A stretch of DNA of 9,499 nucleotides. Source: a bacterium. GTDB lineage: Bacteria; CG2-30-53-67; CG2-30-70-394. Shown here in pieces: positions 2-8,868 of this stretch; positions within the stretch are counted from its first letter, which is position 1; every line of letters starts with the position of its first letter. The stretch spans positions 1 to 9,499 of the forward strand of contig JAJRSX010000006.1 in assembly GCA_024278555.1 (NCBI GenBank). The letters run 5' to 3'. The notes below the pieces were generated by a model. That model did not search any database. It saw nothing but the letters and a program-made list of their open reading frames with translations, and had not been told where the DNA came from. The position numbers and the translations under genes were made by a program.

Positions 2-1993
2 CCGATCGACATCCCCAACTGCGAGCGGTGCCACGCCCTCGCCGACGGCGCGTCGGTGAACTCCGCCCAGAACGGCAAACCGGGGATCGACACCATGGTC
101 GCCGACGAGCTCGACTTCTGGAACGCCTACTACGGTGTCGACGTGGCCGCCGGCGACTCGGACTGGTACTCGCGCCTGAAGGCGGCGGCGGTCTCCATGC
201 TCGCCATCCACGACCAGCAGCACGGCACCTCGTTCACCGCCAACTTCCCGGGCGTCACCCTCGACGCCAACGGCAACCTCTCCGACACCAGCGACATCCC
301 CCAGAACACCCGCCTCGGCCACCAGACGGTCGCCTGCCAGCGGTGCCACGCGGACAACGTAATCGCGGTGGTCAAGTCGGCCTACAGCGCCGCCACCGGC
401 GAGCTGATCCCGCCGCTCACCGAGGCGCTCCACAACAACCACAAGGACAACCCCTTCTCCGACTCCCTGAACCGCAACGGCGGCTGCCAGGGGTGCCACC
501 CGGCGCACCGCTCCGACGGTGACATGACCGGCTACCCGATCACCGAGCTGGGCCTCAACGCCCAGTCCGCGGGCGACAACCGCGACGCCGCCGGCGGCTG
601 CTTCGTCGGTCGCGACGTCCACTCGAACCGCAACAAAGACGCCGACGCCACCACCCCGAGCCACCTGAACGCGGTGGGCCGGTGGCTGCTGGACAACGTC
701 GCCAACGACACCGGCACCTGGAAGGGGATCTGGTGCACCAACTGCCACAGCCAGCTCGGCCAGGAGTTGTGGAAGGCGGACAGCCTCGGCGACCACGGCG
801 GCACGCCGTTCGCGCCGAACCCCAACGACACCCTGCGTGACGAGCCGACCCTGGCGGCGATCGCCGGCGGCCTGGGGATCTCCCTCCAGCAGGCCACCGA
901 CTGGCTCGACCCGAAGACCAACGCCGACACCGCGGCGATCTGGCAGGAAGATCCCGGCCTCTGTGACTACGTGGGCGGCCTCTTCGGCAACCCGGTGAGC
1001 CCCTTCCAGGACGGCAACGTCGCCACCATCGAGGTCGCCCTCCCGGGCCAGACGTGCTCCACCGCGACCAGCGCCCCCGGCCCCGACTGCGACGGTGACG
1101 GCAACCCCGACTTCCAGATCTGCGGCACCCTGGACGCCGACGGGGACTTCTCCGTCAACGCCCTGGACTTCTGCACCACCCCGGGCTGTGTCGCCACCGC
1201 CCAGGCCACCCTGGCCAACTCCAGCGCGGTGCCGGTGCCCATGTCCGCGGCCACCGACGGCCGGGACCACTGGCTCTCCCCGGGTGAGCCCCACTGCGCC
1301 GACTGCCACAGTGCACCCTACGTGGAGAACAGCGGTGATCCGGGTCGCAACCCCTACCCGCCCTTCAACTACCCCGGCAAGTACGGCCTGTTCCGCTACA
1401 GCCGCGGCCACCAGGACATCACCTGCCAGGGGTGCCACGAGTCGATCCACGGCCTCTACCCGACCACCCAGATCGACACCACCTCCTACAACCAGGCGGC
1501 GAGCATGAACCCCGACGGCTCGCACGGGCCGCTCAAGTGCGCTGCCTGCCACCAGGCCAACGGCAACGGCGTCACCGCGTGGTCCGACAAGCTCACTTAC
1601 AACGGCACCAAGATCGCCGGCGACTTCGACACCGCGGTCTCCTGGATGCACACCTTCGACGACGCGGCCGATCCCACCGTCGCGGTGTGTCGCAACTGCC
1701 ACGGTGACGAGACCTCCAAGGTCTCGCAGACGAAAAAGGAGTGGCTCAAGCACACCATGAAGGGCCGGGTGTCGCGCTCCACCATGGACAAGGTGGAGAT
1801 GGGGATCATGGGCCACGTCTCCGGCGCCACCAACCCGCTCAACACCGTCTGCCTCGGTTGCCACGACGACAAGTCGTCGGATGTCCGCTGCTCCAAGGGT
1901 GAATGGCTCGACCACCTGAGCGAGGGGCGCGTCTCCGAGTCGGTGTGGGAGGCGGTCTCCACCATGCAGACCGGTGGAACCTGCGGCTACTAG
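2..1993 (+). CDS. Multiheme c-type cytochrome, 3' part (5' end outside window)
   Basis: An electron-transfer protein probably exported to the periplasm or cell surface, where c-type haems are attached. The frame is open to the left edge, and a CERCH haem site at 20-34 precedes the first possible internal start (GTG at 56), so the true start lies outside. Nine CXXCH sites are visible, starting at 20, 335, 485, 734, 1295, 1424, 1538, 1688 and 1850. Between the fourth and fifth is an Asp-rich stretch (about 1085-1174) with DCDGDGNPD and LDADGDFSVNALD, resembling EF-hand or thrombospondin type 3 calcium loops. The last two haem sites each start a related C-terminal unit (1688-1849 and 1850-1990) sharing K-x-EWL-x-H and GRVS-x-S. 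The second unit has two extra Cys outside CXXCH (VRCSKG and the terminal GGTCGY). I cannot name the family or its partner. Haem count and location are inferred from motifs, and the signal peptide is not visible. Confidence 0.93.
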   Translation, partial: PIDIPNCERCHALADGASVNSAQNGKPGIDTMVADELDFWNAYYGVDVAAGDSDWYSRLKAAAVSMLAIHDQQHGTSFTANFPGVTLDANGNLSDTSDIPQNTRLGHQTVACQRCHADNVIAVVKSAYSAATGELIPPLTEALHNNHKDNPFSDSLNRNGGCQGCHPAHRSDGDMTGYPITELGLNAQSAGDNRDAAGGCFVGRDVHSNRNKDADATTPSHLNAVGRWLLDNVANDTGTWKGIWCTNCHSQLGQELWKADSLGDHGGTPFAPNPNDTLRDEPTLAAIAGGLGISLQQATDWLDPKTNADTAAIWQEDPGLCDYVGGLFGNPVSPFQDGNVATIEVALPGQTCSTATSAPGPDCDGDGNPDFQICGTLDADGDFSVNALDFCTTPGCVATAQATLANSSAVPVPMSAATDGRDHWLSPGEPHCADCHSAPYVENSGDPGRNPYPPFNYPGKYGLFRYSRGHQDITCQGCHESIHGLYPTTQIDTTSYNQAASMNPDGSHGPLKCAACHQANGNGVTAWSDKLTYNGTKIAGDFDTAVSWMHTFDDAADPTVAVCRNCHGDETSKVSQTKKEWLKHTMKGRVSRSTMDKVEMGIMGHVSGATNPLNTVCLGCHDDKSSDVRCSKGEWLDHLSEGRVSESVWEAVSTMQTGGTCGY

Positions 1994-2058
1994 GCCAAAC
2001 CGACACCGGGGAGCGAGGGGTCCCACCCCCCTCCCTCCCCCGGCCATGAAGTCCCCGA

Positions 2059-2089
2059 GGGGGGCACCGGATGGTGCCCCCCTTTTTTT
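2059..2089 (+). terminator. Rho-independent terminator after the cytochrome gene
   Basis: A perfect 10-bp stem, GGGGGGCACC with GGTGCCCCCC, encloses a GGAT loop and is followed directly by seven T. It starts 65 nt after the cytochrome stop codon. It should separate cytochrome transcription from the downstream operon, which has its own promoter. Confidence 0.93.
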
Positions 2090-2245: not shown

Positions 2246-2262
2246 TTGGCACGGTCGTTGCT
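2246..2262 (+). promoter_or_regulatory. Sigma-54 (RpoN) promoter for the EGKCG-peptide operon
   Basis: TTGGCACG-GTCG-TTGCT matches the RpoN consensus YTGGCACG-N4-TTGCW at every defined position. The GG (2248-2249) and GC (2260-2261) have the required 10-nt spacing. The predicted transcription start is about 2273, giving a leader of roughly 43 nt to the ATG at 2316. A sigma-54 promoter needs an ATP-driven activator. The C-terminal part of one such protein is encoded at 8978-9499, though whether it acts here is unknown. Confidence 0.85.
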
Positions 2263-2315
2263 ACAGCTCAGACAGCAACGGCCTTTCCTATTTACACTGA
2301 GCAAGGAGATCCACC

Positions 2316-2843
2316 ATGGCACGTCCGTCCCAGCACCCCGTTATGAATTGGAAGCAGGCAACCTCGGCGTCGTGGCGCCTCCTCCTGGGTGCGACCGTCG
2401 CCGCCGCCTTCGCGGTGGTCCCCGCCGCCCACGCGGGCAGCAACCCCTTTGAAGTAAGCGGCGACCACGCCCCCCTGCTCCTCGCCGACGGCGGCAAGTG
2501 CGGCGAGGGCAAATGTGGCGACGCCATGAAGGAGAAGAAGGAGGCCAAGTGCGGCGCCGAGATGAAGGAAGGCAAAGAGGGCAAGTGTGGTGAGGGCAAG
2601 TGCGGTGACGCCATGAAGGAGAAGAAGGAAGGTAAGTGCGGCGCCGACATGAAGGCCCATAAAGAGGGCAAGTGCGGCGAGGGCAAGTGCGGTGACGCCA
2701 TGAAGGAGCACAAAGAGGGCAAGTGCGGTGAAGGCAAGTGCGGCGACGCAGTGAAAGAGCACAAGGAAGGTAAGTGCGGCGACGCCATGAAGAAGGAGGA
2801 GAAGTCCGCCAAGTGCGGCGAAGGCAAGTGCGGCGGCAAGTAG
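2316..2843 (+). CDS. hvfA: HvfA-like exported Cys-rich EGKCG-repeat peptide (RiPP metallophore precursor family)
   Basis: A 175-aa low-complexity protein. The ATG at 2316 follows AAGGAG (2303-2308) at 7-nt spacing. The N-terminus is a long signal peptide with hydrophobic core about residues 22-37 and a likely cleavage after AHA at residue 40. A short linker follows, and from residue 61 the protein is built of Lys-Cys-Gly repeats: 13 Cys, all in KCG, ten of them in EGKCG. It has no other Cys. In the known family (HvfA of Haemophilus, bufferin BufA2 type), MNIO/DUF692 enzymes convert EGKCG cysteines to thiooxazole-type groups that bind copper. This one is unusually long and motif-rich. It is the first gene behind the sigma-54 promoter and is followed by doxX. 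No MNIO gene is in the window, so modification is unproven; it could be an unmodified thiol-rich metal buffer. Family assignment is strong, metal and modification are inferred. Confidence 0.85.
   Translation: MARPSQHPVMNWKQATSASWRLLLGATVAAAFAVVPAAHAGSNPFEVSGDHAPLLLADGGKCGEGKCGDAMKEKKEAKCGAEMKEGKEGKCGEGKCGDAMKEKKEGKCGADMKAHKEGKCGEGKCGDAMKEHKEGKCGEGKCGDAVKEHKEGKCGDAMKKEEKSAKCGEGKCGGK
2496..2840 (+). repeat. Coding tandem repeats of the EGKCG peptide
   Basis: The repeat tract has two unit sizes in order. Two 29-residue units (2496-2582 and 2583-2669, 87 nt each) are followed by two 17-residue units (2670-2720 and 2721-2771, 51 nt each), a 13-residue remnant (2772-2810) and a terminal KCGEGKCGGK. 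The 17-residue unit equals the 29-residue unit without its middle 12-residue KCGA-x-MK segment. Cys spacing therefore alternates 5 and 12, with one 13. Synonymous differences between units (GGC/GGT, AAG/AAA, GAA/GAG) show they are not recent identical copies. Confidence 0.9.
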
Positions 2844-2878
2844 CCCGTCCCGACAGGTCGTAACCCGTAACGGCTGGC

Positions 2879-2905
2879 AGGGGCGGGGGAGCCCCCCCCG
2901 CCCCT
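2879..2905 (+). promoter_or_regulatory. Strong intercistronic GC hairpin between peptide gene and doxX
   Basis: An 11-bp perfect stem (AGGGGCGGGGG with CCCCCGCCCCT) closes a 5-nt loop. It lies 35 nt after the peptide stop and 54 nt before doxX. No T-run follows, so it is unlikely to be an efficient intrinsic terminator. It more likely stabilises the 3' end of the peptide mRNA or attenuates read-through, so that the peptide is made in excess over the enzymes. That role is inference. Confidence 0.6.
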
Positions 2906-2959
2906 CGCCGGCGACGCGGCCGACGACGCACCGTCCCTCAACACAAGGGAGCCCCCCGG

Positions 2960-3574
2960 ATGAACCCCCTCATCACCCTCGCCGACCGCCTCCTCCGGGC
3001 GGTGCGCCGCCTCGACTTCATCACCCCCCTGGCCCTGCGCCTCTACCTGGCGCCGATCTTCCTCGACTCCGGGTGGCGCAAATTCACCGACATCGAGTCC
3101 ACCGCCGCCTGGTTCGGCAACCCCGACTGGGGGCTCGGCCTCCCCTTCCCCCACCTCCAGGCGTGGATGGCGACCTCCACCGAGCTCATCGGCGGCGTCT
3201 GCCTGCTCCTCGGCCTGGCGGTCCCGTGGCTCGCCATCCCCCTGATCGTCGTCCTCCTGGTGGCCATCGCCACCGTCCACGGCGCGCACGGCTGGCTCGC
3301 CCTCGTCGGCCCGACCAACGGCACCAGCGGGCTGTTTGCCAACGACGCCACCCGCGAGGCGGTGACCCACCTGGAGCGGGCCAAGGAGATACTCCAGGCC
3401 CACGGCAACTACGACTGGCTCACCCAGACCGGCTCCTTCGTGGTCCTCAACAACGGCATAGAGCTGGTGGTCGCCTACATCATCATGCTCACCGCCCTCT
3501 TCTTCTGGGGCGGCGGCCGCTACCTCTCCGCCGACTACTGGATCCGCCACTGGTGGGAGACGAAACAGCGGTGA
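2960..3574 (+). CDS. doxX: DoxX-family membrane protein, HvfX-like type linked to EGKCG peptides
   Basis: A 204-aa integral membrane protein. The start at 2960 follows AAGGGAG (2945-2951) at 8-nt spacing. The DoxX signature is clear: LALRLYLAPIFLDSGWRKF in the first membrane segment (about 22-41), TELIGGVCLLLGLAVPWLAI (about 74-93), and a following helix ending near VHGAHGW (106-112). A soluble insert (about 113-160) ends in NYDWLTQTGSFVVLNNGIE, and the last helix is about 168-184. This long insert resembles DoxX proteins found in EGKCG-peptide (Hvf/bufferin) clusters, where DoxX accompanies the MNIO enzyme. Its biochemical role there is unsettled, with export, redox or copper delivery considered. 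The stop codon overlaps the likely GTG start of the next gene (GTGA), indicating translational coupling. Family call is firm, function is inferred. Confidence 0.88.
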   Translation: MNPLITLADRLLRAVRRLDFITPLALRLYLAPIFLDSGWRKFTDIESTAAWFGNPDWGLGLPFPHLQAWMATSTELIGGVCLLLGLAVPWLAIPLIVVLLVAIATVHGAHGWLALVGPTNGTSGLFANDATREAVTHLERAKEILQAHGNYDWLTQTGSFVVLNNGIELVVAYIIMLTALFFWGGGRYLSADYWIRHWWETKQR

Positions 3575-4251
3575 GCACCCAGGGGGGCAGCGGCCGACCC
3601 CCGGCAGCCGGGCAGACCGGCCCCCCGGGTGGTCCCCGCGAAAGGACAGAGGCTCCCAGCCTCCTCGAAGGGTGGTTGACCACCCCGATCGCCCGCCGCG
3701 CCCTCCTCGCCCGCGGAGCGGCGCTGGCCGCCACGGTGGCGGCGGGCGGAGCCCTCGCCTGCCTCCGGCGGCCGTCGCCGGCGCAGGTGGCGCGTGCCGC
3801 GACCGGCCTCGACCAGCCGCCGTGGCCGGCGATCGCCGCCATCCACGACCACCTCTTCCCCGACGACGACAACGGCCCCTCGGCCCGCGACATCGACGCC
3901 ACCGCCTACCTGCGCGCCCTCCTCGACGACCCGGACTTCGACGCCGAGGAGGCGCGCTTCATCCGCAAGGGGGCCGGCTGGCTCGATGACCTGGCCATGA
4001 AGCGCGGCGGCAGCCCCTTTGCGAAGCTCGACACCGCGACCCGTGAGCGGGTGGTCACCGAGGTCGCCGCCTCCGGCCCGGGGGAGCGGTGGCTCTCGAC
4101 GCTGATCACCTACCTCTTCGAGGCGCTGCTTTCCGACCCCATCTACGGCGGCAACCCCGACGGCATCGGCTGGCAATGGCTCCACCACCAACCCGGCTTC
4201 CCGCGCCCGGAGGCGGGGCAGACCTACCGGGAGCTACAGGCCCACATATGA
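3571..4251 (+). CDS. Gluconate 2-dehydrogenase subunit 3-family protein with Tat-like signal
   Basis: A 226-aa protein if started at GTG 3571, which overlaps the doxX stop as GTGA. Members of this family are the small subunit of periplasmic FAD dehydrogenases (gluconate, sorbitol, glucose), and the small subunit commonly carries the Tat signal that exports the cofactor-loaded GMC partner. Here ARRALLARGAALAATVAAGG (41-60) looks like a twin-arginine signal. The family C-terminal signature appears as DPIYGGNPDGIGWQWL (189-204) followed by HHQPGFPRP. Residues 1-35 are Gly/Pro-rich and odd for a Tat leader. A TTG at 3676 would give a conventional short leader (191 aa), so the start is uncertain. 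The stop overlaps an ATG (ATGA, 4248-4251), as if coupled to a following frame. The GMC partner is the next real gene. The substrate cannot be read from the sequence. Confidence 0.85.
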   Translation: MSTQGGSGRPPAAGQTGPPGGPRERTEAPSLLEGWLTTPIARRALLARGAALAATVAAGGALACLRRPSPAQVARAATGLDQPPWPAIAAIHDHLFPDDDNGPSARDIDATAYLRALLDDPDFDAEEARFIRKGAGWLDDLAMKRGGSPFAKLDTATRERVVTEVAASGPGERWLSTLITYLFEALLSDPIYGGNPDGIGWQWLHHQPGFPRPEAGQTYRELQAHI

Positions 4252-4484
4252 ACCCGCCACCGAAAAACTGGAGATGCCACATGAGCGGGTTCGGGTTCAC
4301 CGCAAAGACGCAGAGAGCGCAGAGATATCGGAAGGGAGTACCAGGTCGGCTCGCCACTCCCCACGGTGTGCTGGGAGGAGCCCGTTTCCCCGGCCTCTCC
4401 GTGGTAACACCCCTCTGCGTCTCTGCGGTGAAAACGTCCCACCTTGATTCCCCAAGAGCCAGCGGGAACCCCAGCCACCCATGA
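4248..4484 (+). other. Short coupled reading frame running through the repeat element
   Basis: An ATG overlapping the previous stop (ATGA, 4248-4251) opens a 78-codon frame that passes through the inverted-repeat element and ends in the TGA overlapping the GMC start (ATGA, 4481-4484). A second in-frame ATG at 4281 has GGAG (4270-4273) at 7-nt spacing. Its product (TAKTQRAQRYRK and so on) is the translation typical of a dispersed intergenic repeat, so I do not think it is a functional protein. It may matter as a ribosome path that couples translation of the two enzyme subunits. Confidence 0.3.
4296..4432. repeat. MITE-like inverted-repeat element between subunit 3 and GMC genes
   Basis: Terminal arms TTCACCGCAAAGACGCAGAG (4296-4315) and its complement CTCTGCGTCTCTGCGGTGAA (4413-4432) agree at 19 of 20 positions, enclosing about 97 bp with no transposase. 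Short inner complementarity occurs (CCACGG near 4360 and CCGTGG near 4399). The arm sequence resembles dispersed intergenic repeats seen in many environmental bacterial genomes. The flanks share GCCAC-ATGAGC (4276-4286) and GCCACCC-ATGAGC (4474-4486), which may be an imperfect duplication made on insertion at the GMC start. Confidence 0.75.
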
Positions 4485-6217
4485 GCCACGACTTCGACAT
4501 CTGCATCGTCGGTTCCGGCGCCGGGGCCGGGCCGGTGGCGCTGACTTGCGCCGAGGCGGGCTACTCGGTCCTGGTCCTGGAGAAGGGGCCGTGGTTCACC
4601 GAGAACGACTTCACCAAGGACGAGCTCGCCTGCTGCCGGCGCTCCGTCTACACCCCGAAACTCGCCGACGAGCAGCATGTGATCGAAGAGCGTGGCCGCA
4701 ACGGCTGGGAGGCGACCCCCACCTTCGAGTCCGGGTGGGACTTTTGGAACGGCAACTGCGTGGGCGGCTCGTCGAACTTCATGAGCGGCTTCTTCTACCG
4801 CCTCAAGCCGGTAGATTTTCGCCTGCGCTCCACCTTCGGCCCCGTCGCCGGCGCCGAGGTGGTCGACTGGCCGATCGACTACGAGGAGCTGGAGCCCTAT
4901 TACGAGCAGGTGGAGCGGGTGGTGGGGATCTCCGGCCACATCGTTCCCCACCCCTTTCTCGAACCGCGCTCCACCCCCGACCTCCCCTACCCCCCCACCG
5001 CCGAGCACCCGGTCGCCGCCCTGTTTGACGCCGCCGCCACCCGCCTCGGTCTCCACCCCCTGCCGACCCCGCGGGCGGTCCTGCCGCACGCCGCGCTCGG
5101 CCGCTACGGCTGCGCCTACTCCGGCTACTGCGGCTCCTACGGCTGCGCCACCGGCGCCAAGGGGTCGGCGCGCGCCGCGCTCCTGGACAAGGCGGTGGCC
5201 ACCGGCCGCTGCGAGATCCGCCCCCACGCCAAGGTCACCCACCTGACCAGCGACGCCACCGGCCGCATCGAAGCCGTGGCCTACGTGGATCGCGCGGGCG
5301 CCCGCCACCAGGTCGACGCCCGCCTCTACGTGGTCGCCTGCCAGGCAATCGAGACCAGCCGCCTGCTGCTCCTCTCCACCGGCCCGCGCCACCCGAACGG
5401 CCTCGCCAACCGCTCCGGCCAGGTGGGCAGGAACCTGCTCTTTTCCGCCGGCGGCTCCGGCGGCGGCGACCTCGTCTACAAAGAGATGTCCGCGGCGGCG
5501 GCGGACGACCTCAAGGAGGTCGGCCCGTTCGTCAACCGCGGCCTCCAGGACTGGTACGAGGTCAACGCCCCGGAGCTCGGCGGCCGGGTCAAGGGCGGCA
5601 CCATCGACTTCCTCTTCCAGCACCCCAACCCGATCGTCCGCGCCAACCGCCTCAAGTGGGCGGACAACGGCAACCTCCTGTGGGGCTCCGCCCTGAAGCG
5701 CAAGCTCAAGTCCGCCTTCACCGAATCGCGCCGCTTCCGCTTCGAGGTCTTCTGCGACTGGATGCCCAACCCCAACTGTCGCGTCACCCTCGACCCCCAG
5801 GTCCGCGACCGGTGGGGGAGCCCGGTGGCCAGAGTCCGGGTTGGCCACCACCCCCACGACGTGCGCATCGGCAAGCTCCTGGCGGCGAAGGCGGAGGCGG
5901 TGCTGCGCGCCATGGGGGCCAAGCAGGTCGACTCCTCCACCACCGGCGACCCGCCCACCAACCTGCAGGCGGGCGGCTGCCGCTTCGGCGACGACCCGGC
6001 CACCTCGGTCCTCGACCGCGACTGCCGCGCCCACGACGTCGACAACCTCTACGTCACCGACGGCTCCTTCATGCCCACCGGCGGCTCAGTCCCCTACACC
6101 TGGACCATCTACGCCAACGCCTTCCGCGTCGCCGACCGCATCGTAACGCGGCTCGGCGGACGGCGACCAGAGGAGACAACCACGAAGGCCACGAAGAGCA
6201 CGAAGGGGGTCGCCTGA
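4481..6217 (+). CDS. GMC-family FAD oxidoreductase, gluconate dehydrogenase flavoprotein type
   Basis: A 578-aa flavoprotein, probably the large subunit paired with the subunit 3 protein upstream and co-exported by its Tat signal, since it has no leader of its own. FAD-binding features: VGSGAGAGPVA (10-20), LVLEKG (31-36) with Glu34 for the ribose, and GNCVGGSSNFMSG (91-103). A Cys-rich loop, CAYSGYCGSYGC (211-222), fits the region where related dehydrogenases hold an Fe-S cluster, but has three Cys (211, 217, 222) with Ser214 where I expect a fourth. The GMC C-terminal domain ends in NLYVTDGSFMPTGGSVPYTW (522-541). The usual catalytic His and Asn appear replaced by Leu495 and Pro538. Ribosome binding is weak (GGGA 13 nt before the ATG at 4481), because a repeat element lies just upstream. 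The substrate is unknown. The C-terminal TTKATKSTK is encoded by a short repeat. Confidence 0.88.
   Translation: MSHDFDICIVGSGAGAGPVALTCAEAGYSVLVLEKGPWFTENDFTKDELACCRRSVYTPKLADEQHVIEERGRNGWEATPTFESGWDFWNGNCVGGSSNFMSGFFYRLKPVDFRLRSTFGPVAGAEVVDWPIDYEELEPYYEQVERVVGISGHIVPHPFLEPRSTPDLPYPPTAEHPVAALFDAAATRLGLHPLPTPRAVLPHAALGRYGCAYSGYCGSYGCATGAKGSARAALLDKAVATGRCEIRPHAKVTHLTSDATGRIEAVAYVDRAGARHQVDARLYVVACQAIETSRLLLLSTGPRHPNGLANRSGQVGRNLLFSAGGSGGGDLVYKEMSAAAADDLKEVGPFVNRGLQDWYEVNAPELGGRVKGGTIDFLFQHPNPIVRANRLKWADNGNLLWGSALKRKLKSAFTESRRFRFEVFCDWMPNPNCRVTLDPQVRDRWGSPVARVRVGHHPHDVRIGKLLAAKAEAVLRAMGAKQVDSSTTGDPPTNLQAGGCRFGDDPATSVLDRDCRAHDVDNLYVTDGSFMPTGGSVPYTWTIYANAFRVADRIVTRLGGRRPEETTTKATKSTKGVA
6180..6206 (+). 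repeat. Three 9-bp tandem units at the 3' end of the GMC gene
   Basis: CCACGAAGG, CCACGAAGA and GCACGAAGG stand head to tail and encode the Thr/Lys-rich tail of the GMC protein. This resembles a dispersed CACGAAG repeat common beside genes in environmental proteobacteria. It probably extended the reading frame past the ancestral C-terminus. Confidence 0.6.
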
Positions 6218-6377: not shown

Positions 6378-6965
6378 TTAGACCTCCCCCGCGGCCCCTC
6401 GGTTCATAATCGCCAGGATGACGCTCTTCACCCGCAGGGCCTCCCTCTTCAGGGGCAGGGGCAGCGGCTTGCCGCCGTAGATCATCGGGTCCATGTTCAG
6501 GGTGTAGAGCCAGAGCTGCCCCTCCTTGTCCTCCACCAGGGTGATGCGGCAGGGGAGGTAGGCGGCGTAAGCGTCGTTGTAGTCGAGCATCTGCGCCGCG
6601 GTCAGGGCGTTACAAAACATGAAGACCTTGACGTGGCGGTACGGCGTGCCGCTCATCAGGGAGACCCGCTCGGAGAGGGCGAGCTCGCCGACGTTCTTGA
6701 TGTTCAGCTCGGTGGCCACCGAGCGCATGGTCTCCTCCACGTCCTCCACCGTGAGCCCCTCGGCCACCTTCACCCGCCACACGGTGGCCGCGGCGCTGTT
6801 GCCACTCTCCAGGAGCCCCTGGACCAGCTCCGAGTAGACCGACATCGCCTGGGGATCGAAGCCGCGCAGGGTGGCGATGGCGCCGCCGTAGCGGGTCGCC
6901 CCGTAGACGACCAGGACGAGCGCCGCCACGCCTACCAGGGCCAGCAGATTTCGTATCGCCTTCAT
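6378..6965 (-). CDS. Membrane-anchored DUF302 protein
   Basis: A 195-aa protein with one N-terminal membrane segment (about residues 5-21) and a DUF302 domain in the C-terminal half. The domain core shows VFMFCNALTAAQMLDYN (114-130), AYLPCRITLVED (135-146) and LWLYTLNMDPMIYGG (151-165), with Cys118 and Cys139 at the family's usual Cys positions. DUF302 has no established biochemical activity; members occur beside sulfur and heavy-metal genes. It is the last gene of the minus-strand operon. Its ATG overlaps the preceding stop (ATGA), and GGAGG lies 7 nt upstream of the start. The segment between anchor and domain (about 40-110) carries no motif I recognise. The domain probably faces the periplasm. 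Confidence 0.85.
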   Translation of the reverse strand: MKAIRNLLALVGVAALVLVVYGATRYGGAIATLRGFDPQAMSVYSELVQGLLESGNSAAATVWRVKVAEGLTVEDVEETMRSVATELNIKNVGELALSERVSLMSGTPYRHVKVFMFCNALTAAQMLDYNDAYAAYLPCRITLVEDKEGQLWLYTLNMDPMIYGGKPLPLPLKREALRVKSVILAIMNRGAAGEV

Positions 6966-7555
6966 CTCGCGCCTCCCGTGTGTGGCTTCGGTTTCGGGGT
7001 GGCCGCCGGCACCGCCTCGGCCGACACGGGATGCTCGACGCGCCCACCGCCGTAGCTTGCCGCCACGTCGCGGACGATCCCGTCGAGGAGCCCCTCCACC
7101 GCATCGAGGACCGGCCTATCCTGCGGGTCGGGCCAGTCGATGTGGCGGTAGGAGAGGTAGATGGTCCCCGGCCTGCCCGCCAGCGAGTAGACGGCGATCT
7201 CGTAGGGGCAGTAGGCGACCAGGTGCGGATTCTGCTCCAGCATGTCGCGGGAGATCACCGCGCTGCAAAACGACATGACGTTCGCCTTGGCGAAGATCGG
7301 CCGGGTGCGGCCCAAGGCCTTGCCGGTGCGGTCGATCATCTCCCCCACGTGGGAGATGGTGGAGATGACCAGGCCGCGATCGCCGAGGGCCATCTTCAGG
7401 TCGTCCCACACGTCGTCGTAGTCCCCCTCCACGGCGTAGATCACCACCGTCTCCGGAGAGGTCGCGCCCTCCCGCGTCGCCTTCGCCGGAGCGGCGCATC
7501 CCGCCGCCATGAGGAGGAGGCCGACGGCGGCGGCTACCGGGCGCGTGCTTCCCAT
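6962..7555 (-). CDS. DUF302 lipoprotein
   Basis: A 197-aa protein with a lipoprotein-type leader: VAAAVGLLLMAAGC with the acceptor Cys at residue 20. Ala at the -3 position makes the lipobox acceptable but not ideal. The DUF302 domain spans about 35-145, with NVMSFCSAVISRDMLEQNPH (92-111), LVAYCPYEIAVYSLAG (112-127) and TIYLSYRHIDWP (131-142). Cys97 and Cys116 match the positions of the two Cys in the second DUF302 protein. The C-terminal tail (about 172-197) is Ala/Pro-rich. The ATG abuts the transporter stop directly (TAG-ATG), and the GGAGG sits inside the end of the transporter gene, so the two are translationally coupled. With its paralogue it may form a periplasmic pair serving the transporter. 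Function of the domain is not established. Confidence 0.87.
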   Translation of the reverse strand: MGSTRPVAAAVGLLLMAAGCAAPAKATREGATSPETVVIYAVEGDYDDVWDDLKMALGDRGLVISTISHVGEMIDRTGKALGRTRPIFAKANVMSFCSAVISRDMLEQNPHLVAYCPYEIAVYSLAGRPGTIYLSYRHIDWPDPQDRPVLDAVEGLLDGIVRDVAASYGGGRVEHPVSAEAVPAATPKPKPHTGGAR

Positions 7556-8788
7556 CTACACCTCCCGCATCAACTGCCAGTTCATGATCTTCGCCCCGGA
7601 GATGGCACCGATGATAATGAAGGTCATGGTCAATATAGAACCCACGGAGAGGGTGGAGATCCCGCTCAACCCCTGGCCGATGTTGCACCCGAGGCCGAGG
7701 ACGGCGCCAAACCCCATGAGCAGGCCGCCGGCGAAGTTCCACTTGAACTGCTGCAGGGGCGGCGCGACCCAGTGGAAGCTGCGGGTGATCACGGCGGCGA
7801 GGAAGGCGCCGCCGAGCACCCCGAAGACCGTGGCGACGGCGAAGTTGATCGTCTCTCCGGTCCACATGATGATGTAGCGGAAGGTCTGGGCGTCGGCCAG
7901 GGCGAAGGTGAGCGCCTTCGGCCGCCACGTCTGCAGCAGGGTGGGATCGTCGGCGCCGGTAAAAGAGAAGGCGTCGATGTGGGGGATGGCCCGGAACGCG
8001 ACGCCGTTGAGCCACCAGGCGAGGACGATGGTGAGACCGATCCCGATCCCGGCAAGCGGCCAGCGCAGACCCCACCAGTCGGAGTCGGTGGGGGCGCGGA
8101 CGACGAAGACGATCAGCGCCACCTCGACGAGGAGGATCACCACCCATCCGGGCACCTGCTGGAAGAGGTGCGGGAGGTACTGGCTGGACATCGCCACGGT
8201 GGCGCGATTGAAGTAGTCGGTGCGCAGGTGGGCGGAGATCCCCCACAGGGTGGCGCCCGAGGAGAGGATGAAGGCGAAGACCGCGACCAGGCCGCCGAGG
8301 TTGCCTTCGGCGGTGCGCACCAGGATGCGACTGGCGCAGCCGCCGGCGTAGACGATCCCGACGCCGAAGATGAAGCCGCCGACGCAGTAGCTGAGCCAGG
8401 TCATCGGTGAGGCGAGGTAGATGCTTCGAGTGATGTCCACCTCACCGAGGCTGTAGAGAAACTGGGTCCCGGCGATCGCCACGATCAGCGACATGGCGTA
8501 GGCGCGCGTCTGGCTCAGGTCGCGGACGGTGACCACCGCATGGCAGGCGGCGGCGATGCAGTAGGTGGTCCGCTGCACCACCGCCCCCATCACCGCCCCG
8601 AGGAGCAGACCGCCGATGAGGACGCGGTTGCGGATCGCCCCCTTGAAGGCGGCGATCTCCTCGTCGGAGAGGGCATCCGCGTCGAGGGCGAGGAGGTGGC
8701 CGATCTGAAATACGAGGACCACCACGGCAACGAGCGCGGCGATGACAGAGAGGGTGACGAGGAGCTCACGGCCCCGATTCTTCGACAT
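7556..8788 (-). CDS. yeeE: YeeE/YedE-family transporter (thiosulfate/sulfur-compound import)
   Basis: A 410-aa inner-membrane protein with about nine hydrophobic segments. The family includes the thiosulfate importer TsuA (YeeE) and SoxT-type proteins, in which conserved Cys relay the sulfur compound. All three Cys regions are present: TTYCIAAACHAV (Cys77 and Cys82), YAGGCASRILVR (Cys151) and LGLGCNIGQGLSG (Cys368). The long periplasmic or cytoplasmic loop at about 265-305 is poorly conserved, and an extra Cys135 lies in a membrane segment. I chose the ATG at 8788 because GGAGG precedes it at 7-nt spacing; an upstream ATG at 8857 has no such site and would lie inside the proposed sigma-54 promoter region. 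It is first in an operon with two DUF302 genes. Sulfur-compound transport is supported by family; the exact substrate is not. Confidence 0.9.
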   Translation of the reverse strand: MSKNRGRELLVTLSVIAALVAVVVLVFQIGHLLALDADALSDEEIAAFKGAIRNRVLIGGLLLGAVMGAVVQRTTYCIAAACHAVVTVRDLSQTRAYAMSLIVAIAGTQFLYSLGEVDITRSIYLASPMTWLSYCVGGFIFGVGIVYAGGCASRILVRTAEGNLGGLVAVFAFILSSGATLWGISAHLRTDYFNRATVAMSSQYLPHLFQQVPGWVVILLVEVALIVFVVRAPTDSDWWGLRWPLAGIGIGLTIVLAWWLNGVAFRAIPHIDAFSFTGADDPTLLQTWRPKALTFALADAQTFRYIIMWTGETINFAVATVFGVLGGAFLAAVITRSFHWVAPPLQQFKWNFAGGLLMGFGAVLGLGCNIGQGLSGISTLSVGSILTMTFIIIGAISGAKIMNWQLMREV

Positions 8789-8851
8789 GGTCGGTCCTCC
8801 GAACTTCCGGTTCGCGTGACGGCCCGGTTGACGCACCGGACGCCTCCACGA

Positions 8852-8868
8852 ATGCACATGGCGTGCCT
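8852..8868 (-). promoter_or_regulatory. Sigma-54-like promoter for the yeeE-DUF302 operon
   Basis: Read on the minus strand, AGGCACG-CCAT-GTGCA-T fits TGGCACG-N4-TTGCW with two mismatches. GG (8867-8866) and GC (8855-8854) are separated by exactly 10 nt. The predicted transcription start is near 8842, leaving a leader of about 54 nt before the ATG at 8788. The sigma-54 activator gene ends just upstream on the same strand. It is weaker than the promoter at 2246-2262, and GCAC/GTGC symmetry is an alternative reason for the match. Confidence 0.6.

Follow-up and report, generated by a model that had tools for sequence, protein, structure and literature searches.

Cysteine-repeat peptides of the EGKCG type encoded in genomes without MNIO present a puzzle. 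Such precursors have been reported in 67 of 2583 genomes and were proposed either to need no modification or to be non-functional (PMC12452194). The locus described here raises the question of whether a peptide of this kind has a redox partner other than MNIO, and a recurrently linked flavoenzyme is a candidate for this role. The window, that is, the whole stretch of DNA that was analyzed, is one entire contig of 9499 bases from an assembly of 3.06 Mb in 211 contigs (completeness 100, contamination 0.68). Among the genomes compared, one belongs to the same genus, six belong to the same class and the remainder share only the domain, so that the lineage appears sparsely sampled. The features of the window are the following.

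56..1993, + strand: multihaem c-type cytochrome whose reading frame is open toward the contig start; this upstream gene is also present in the sister species
2057..2084, + strand: hairpin with a T tract, resembling an intrinsic terminator and closing the upstream cytochrome gene
2247..2262, + strand: sigma-54 (-24/-12) promoter TGGCACGGTCGTTGCT; 0.01 matches expected by chance
2316..2843, + strand: HvfA-family secreted peptide with a Sec signal, an AxxNPF motif and 13 KCG, including 10 EGKCG
2960..3574, + strand: HvfX (DoxX family) membrane protein (NF050144, 212.5 bits; PF07681)
3571..4251, + strand: gluconate 2-dehydrogenase subunit 3 (G2DH3) with a Tat signal (PF13618, 57.8 bits); its GTG start overlaps the stop of HvfX
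4252..4480, no strand assigned: spacer with an imperfect palindrome (arms 4296-4315 and 4413-4432), not found in the sister species
4481..6217, + strand: GMC flavoprotein (PF05199/PF00732) with the FAD motif GSGAG, C211/C217/C222 and L495/P538

The peptide consists of 175 amino acids and contains 13 cysteines, every one of them within KCG; EGKCG occurs exactly 10 times, compared to a mean of 0.02 and a maximum of 1 in shuffled versions of the mature part. It passes the NCBIfam model for the KCGExKCG repeat domain (NF050137, 96.5 bits against a cut-off of 19.5) and falls under the cut-off of the HvfA equivalog (NF050188, 47.6 bits against 95). The peptide is likely a ligand of copper or another metal. 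For the census of such peptides, NF050137 alone was rejected because in genome searches it misses several peptides of anammox bacteria and that of the sister species; instead, we used our own profile, built from the anammox peptides and the peptide of the window.

The genes of the locus are closely spaced: 116 bp separate the peptide gene from hvfX, HvfX and G2DH3 overlap by 4 bp, and a gap of 229 bp, partly occupied by an inverted repeat whose arms are 20 nt long and which is probably a dispersed repeat, lies between G2DH3 and GMC. The hairpin at 2057-2084 sets this operon apart from the upstream multihaem cytochrome c, which is a possible electron acceptor, though encoded in a separate transcription unit. 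No cytochrome gene is present between 2247 and 6217, and the operon accordingly encodes no trihaem cytochrome c subunit. A first-pass annotation of this DNA had described a ten-motif EGKCG precursor and an HvfX-like DoxX protein followed by G2DH3 and GMC, with the first three genes tightly linked behind one sigma-54 promoter; all four were identified here by family profiles, and both the spacing and the promoter site bear this description out.

The same annotation had pointed out that MNIO and HvfC are missing from the operon, and had considered that maturation might be supplied from another locus. The genome-wide search that it called for found neither: profile searches of the window's genome yielded no matches to MNIO (DUF692, PF05114) and none to HvfC or PME1 (DUF2063, PF09836), with control genomes positive in both cases. 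Nor does the genome hold a second EGKCG locus in which an MNIO/HvfC pair could reside. Maturation in trans was therefore rejected. PF05114 also has no match in the sister species or in the rest of the class.

The GMC protein is most similar, among solved structures, to FAD-dependent glucose dehydrogenase and fructose dehydrogenase (6a2u, 7w2j; pLDDT of the GMC model 77.9). In FAD-glucose dehydrogenase (GDH), Cys212, Cys218 and Cys222 are ligands of the [3Fe-4S] cluster, and His476 and Asn519 are catalytic (PMC6719666). The cysteines C211, C217 and C222 of the window's GMC protein align with this triad and are invariant in 87 subfamily members, and the protein would accordingly hold FAD and a [3Fe-4S] cluster. 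The position of His476 is occupied by Leu in 98% and that of Asn519 by Pro in 93% of these 87 proteins (L495 and P538 in the window), which argues against a sugar substrate. Homologues at 34-39% identity retain the catalytic His, so that its loss marks this subfamily; the GMC protein belongs to an uncharacterized subfamily with a rebuilt active site. Cys213, which in GDH bonds to the small subunit, is not conserved in the subfamily. Cys500 was considered as a special active-site cysteine and rejected, as it occupies the position of the usual Cys of the GMC motif GTCRMG. The Tat signal of G2DH3 includes an invariant RR (residues 42-43); a fold search with its predicted model gave no significant match among solved structures. 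In homologous complexes, the small subunit is a Tat hitchhiker (PMC9727119), and by analogy the GMC:G2DH3 enzyme is predicted to reach the periplasm via Tat.

Among the relatives of the window's genome, the second species of the genus contains the cytochrome, peptide, HvfX, G2DH3 and GMC genes in the identical order, which rules out an assembly artefact or chimera; the four operon genes are neighbors there as well. The GMC proteins of the two species are 83% identical. In the sister species, the HvfX/G2DH3 overlap is again 4 bp, and G2DH3 shares 1 bp with GMC, so that the G2DH3-GMC gap in the window is probably secondary. An exact TGGCAC-N5-TTGCT sigma-54 pattern precedes the peptide gene at the equivalent position. 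The peptide itself has drifted and contains 8 cysteines, all in KC, with the NPF motif after the signal kept. The GMC gene is absent from the six other class members.

The linkage of the peptide with the flavin pair recurs in another group. Anammox bacteria are anaerobes, and O2-dependent maturation is implausible in this lineage. Three anammox Planctomycetes, in which KCG peptides are encoded upstream of the pair, were among the loci recovered in a genome scan with the window's GMC protein. G2DH3 was detected in 9 of the 75 genomes of Brocadiia (anammox) searched, and all nine genomes with the pair have the arrangement peptide-G2DH3-GMC on one strand, with the peptide directly upstream; the other genomes of the 75 have neither G2DH3 nor GMC. 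These loci fall into three flank contexts, and one genome has a tandem second peptide-G2DH3 unit. The peptide profile matches exactly the same nine of the 75 genomes (chance of perfect overlap 8e-12, uncorrected for relatedness); this profile was built from those very peptides and that of the window, and absence in the other genomes holds at its sensitivity. The nine genomes, one of which includes a 4.4-Mb contig, contain no match to PF05114; the result for HvfC (PF09836) covers the window's genome. None of the nine encodes HvfX above cut-off, and no cytochrome subunit is found in the anammox operons. An ECF sigma factor and an anti-sigma factor are encoded upstream in three of the loci, and a gene for a GH15-family glycosidase follows GMC in one; a second, related locus has a gene resembling it. 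In a maximum-likelihood tree of GMC proteins obtained with a quick method, the anammox copies fall into a single clade (support 100), apart from the window's copy, which groups with that of locus L005 (98) and with Chromatiales (92); this indicates that the linkage does not stem from one recent transfer. A literature search found no paper joining anammox with GMC oxidoreductases.

Beyond these groups, the G2DH3/GMC pair is more widespread than its link to the peptide. The scan was analyzed for the first 80 loci, beyond which there are about 390 further GMC relatives; these 80 come mostly from Gamma- and Betaproteobacteria, and G2DH3 adjoins GMC in 78 of them. A linked peptide was found in four of the 80; as the pair stands without an adjoining peptide gene in most of these loci, the idea of a generally conserved unit of GMC and peptide was rejected. 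In a metagenome-assembled genome of Gallionellaceae that lacks MNIO, an NPF/KCG peptide is divergently oriented from the G2DH3/GMC pair; on a Sulfurospirillum plasmid, a 73-aa KCG peptide without NPF and with a weak profile score is likewise divergent from the pair and adjoins msrP and a two-component system. A full MNIO is encoded in 31 of 51 GMC-bearing genomes, usually beside an EGKCG peptide and distant from GMC. The survey of co-occurrence proposed in the first-pass annotation thus gave a skewed distribution: a peptide adjoins the pair in 5 of 20 genomes without MNIO and in none of 31 with it (Fisher p 0.007, uncorrected for relatedness). At one locus (L083), a complete peptide-MNIO-DUF2063-HvfX cluster is convergent with a neighboring Trx-G2DH3-GMC group; here the pair adjoins an hvf cluster with MNIO, so that it can be an addition and not only a substitute. 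In two MNIO-free genomes (G064 and G090), peptide-HvfX pairs are unlinked to the GMC pair. Of 386 genomes spread across the domain, just two have a match to the peptide profile at E 1e-6, namely the window's own and one other (G411); both carry the GMC subfamily, unlinked to the peptide in the latter. Most proteins of the subfamily lack a neighboring peptide gene, and in many of the genomes concerned an EGKCG peptide adjoins an MNIO at another site, so that the general substrate of the enzyme need not be the peptide.

A gene for a secreted WCxxC thioredoxin-fold protein (PF13899), resembling the C-terminal domain of DsbD, lies just upstream of the pair in 22 of the 80 loci, and a TlpA/AhpC-type gene in three more; the thioredoxin-type loci and the four peptide-linked loci do not overlap. 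The simplest factor common to the neighbors of the pair is a secreted thiol.

The reading that we favor, tentatively and at somewhat short of an even chance, is that the locus represents a version without MNIO of the HvfA/captophorin-type secreted Cys-repeat peptide system in which the flavin pair acts as a periplasmic thiol-redox partner. A sigma-54-controlled operon would give rise to a Sec-exported EGKCG peptide, the membrane protein HvfX and GMC:G2DH3, the latter exported by Tat as a folded complex in which the hitchhiker subunit G2DH3 bears the signal. The GMC protein, with FAD and [3Fe-4S] and minus the His/Asn pair of sugar and alcohol oxidation, might oxidize protein thiols in the periplasm or control their redox state, those of the KCG peptide in this case, with electrons passing via the Fe-S cluster to a cytochrome. 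GMC:G2DH3 would fill the redox-partner position that the O2-dependent MNIO has in hvf operons. The suggestion of the first-pass annotation that a periplasmic flavoenzyme operates here in a variant system has gained from conservation in a second species and from recurrence in MNIO-free anammox bacteria and two further lineages; as for its other part, direct action of the flavoenzyme on the peptide cysteines is an inference, as are the thiol substrate and the product. Given that the anammox version has no HvfX and that most of the GMC subfamily has no peptide, replacement of a maturase cannot be the only role of the pair. Other RiPP enzymes use a flavin to oxidize Cys thiols to thioaldehydes, which makes an O2-free flavin route chemically conceivable. 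We nevertheless regard as quite improbable the more specific proposal that GMC:G2DH3 is an O2-independent maturase that dehydrogenates the EGKCG cysteines in the periplasm (e.g., thiol to thioaldehyde to heterocycle), such that anaerobes could make captophorin-like metallophores; oxidation of the thiols to disulfides, or a stress regulon common to these genes, is no less likely.

A shared regulon only, in which the peptide, HvfX and the flavin pair respond separately to a common periplasmic stress (copper, oxidants), with the peptide as an unmodified buffer of copper or thiols and the flavoenzyme acting on another substrate, is a serious contender, even if on balance unlikely. It would fit the majority of GMC-pair loci, which have no peptide, the separation of EGKCG-HvfX from the GMC pair in the two MNIO-free genomes, and the proposal that precursors without an MNIO may not require modification (PMC12452194); the ECF sigma/anti-sigma genes of three anammox loci and the plasmid-borne msrP with its two-component system suggest stress regulons, and joint regulation in response to metal or redox stress could account for the linkage without physical contact. 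However, tight adjacency in four lineages, the exact co-occurrence in Brocadiia and the HvfX/G2DH3 overlap exceed what co-regulation needs. If the flavin pair instead worked in the reductive direction, keeping the peptide or a thioredoxin-like protein competent for metal binding, or if it handled Cu(I)/Cu(II) electrons, the adjoining DsbD-like WCxxC proteins and msrP beside the plasmid version would be in place; this appears improbable, as the homologous FAD/[3Fe-4S] complexes are dehydrogenases that feed cytochromes (PMC6719666, PMC9727119) and the nearby genes encode no electron donor.

We consider it very unlikely that the pair is a conventional dehydrogenase of sugars or alcohols that adjoins the peptide by chance. 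Glucose and fructose dehydrogenases are its closest solved structures and the GH15-type genes of anammox bacteria would suit such an activity, but this neighbor is confined to two related loci, the neighbors elsewhere being thiol proteins, and Leu/Pro replace the catalytic His/Asn throughout the subfamily. The clear, unrelated sugar substrate that would have spoken against the first-pass annotation is thus not indicated, the sugar-oxidizing catalytic pair being absent.

The thiol-redox reading can be placed against three known systems. With the FAD-glucose and fructose dehydrogenase complexes (6a2u, 7w2j), the pair shares a GMC alpha subunit with the [3Fe-4S] Cys triad and a small Tat-signal subunit (PF13618); it differs in the lack of the catalytic His/Asn, the FAD-linking His and Cys213 from the window's GMC protein, and of a gene for the trihaem cytochrome subunit from the operon. 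The peptide system is of an already known type, that of hvfABCX or captophorin (oxazolin, fontiphorin, bufferin-EGKCG), with which it has in common a signal-bearing HvfA-family precursor with EGKCG repeats, the NPF motif and, in the version of the window, HvfX/DoxX (212.5 bits for NF050144, cut-off 80). In the known system, where HvfA-family cysteines become 5-thiooxazole, MNIO forms thiooxazole with the use of O2, as proposed via a Cys thioaldehyde (PMC13097082), whereas the window's operon and genome lack MNIO (HvfB) and HvfC/DUF2063 and have a Tat-exported flavin pair instead; the anammox version further differs in lacking HvfX. Genomes with EGKCG genes and without MNIO are likewise known; the neighbors listed for EGKCG clusters include a molybdenum oxidoreductase and a ferric reductase, with GMC or gluconate dehydrogenase unmentioned, and the main text names no conserved partner for the MNIO-less precursors (PMC12452194). 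In contrast, the present analysis delineates an uncharacterized GMC subfamily and identifies it as a recurrent partner of MNIO-less peptides.

The operon that converges with the thiol-peptide operon in the window, and lies near it, could possibly have a role in sulfur trafficking; it is listed here with the arrangements found at other surveyed loci.

Window, 6378-8857 (-): two neighboring DUF302 proteins, together with a sulfur transporter resembling YeeE/TsuA
L083, 7688-13873: full hvf cluster made up of peptide, MNIO, DUF2063 and HvfX genes; a Trx-G2DH3-GMC operon runs convergently to it
L176, 9088-10568, and L182, 3715-4736 (genomes G064, G090): two-gene EGKCG-HvfX pair
L186, 1821-6001 (on a plasmid of Sulfurospirillum): KCG peptide and GMC pair, with a two-component system and ferric-reductase-like/msrP genes alongside

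Both G064 and G090 lack MNIO, and their EGKCG-HvfX pairs are unlinked to the GMC pair. The plasmid region is flanked by transposases.

At the end of the GMC gene in the window (6170-6217), a 'cacgaaggccacgaagagcacgaagg' repeat encodes the C-terminal tail TTTKATKSTKG. This tail is missing in the sister species, and the reading frame in the window seems to have been lengthened by the repeat.

At three anammox loci (L129, L130 and L011), a sigma factor of the ECF type and an anti-sigma factor of the zf-HC2 type are encoded upstream of the peptide operon, an arrangement reminiscent of the sigma/anti-sigma genes in bufferin 1 clusters.
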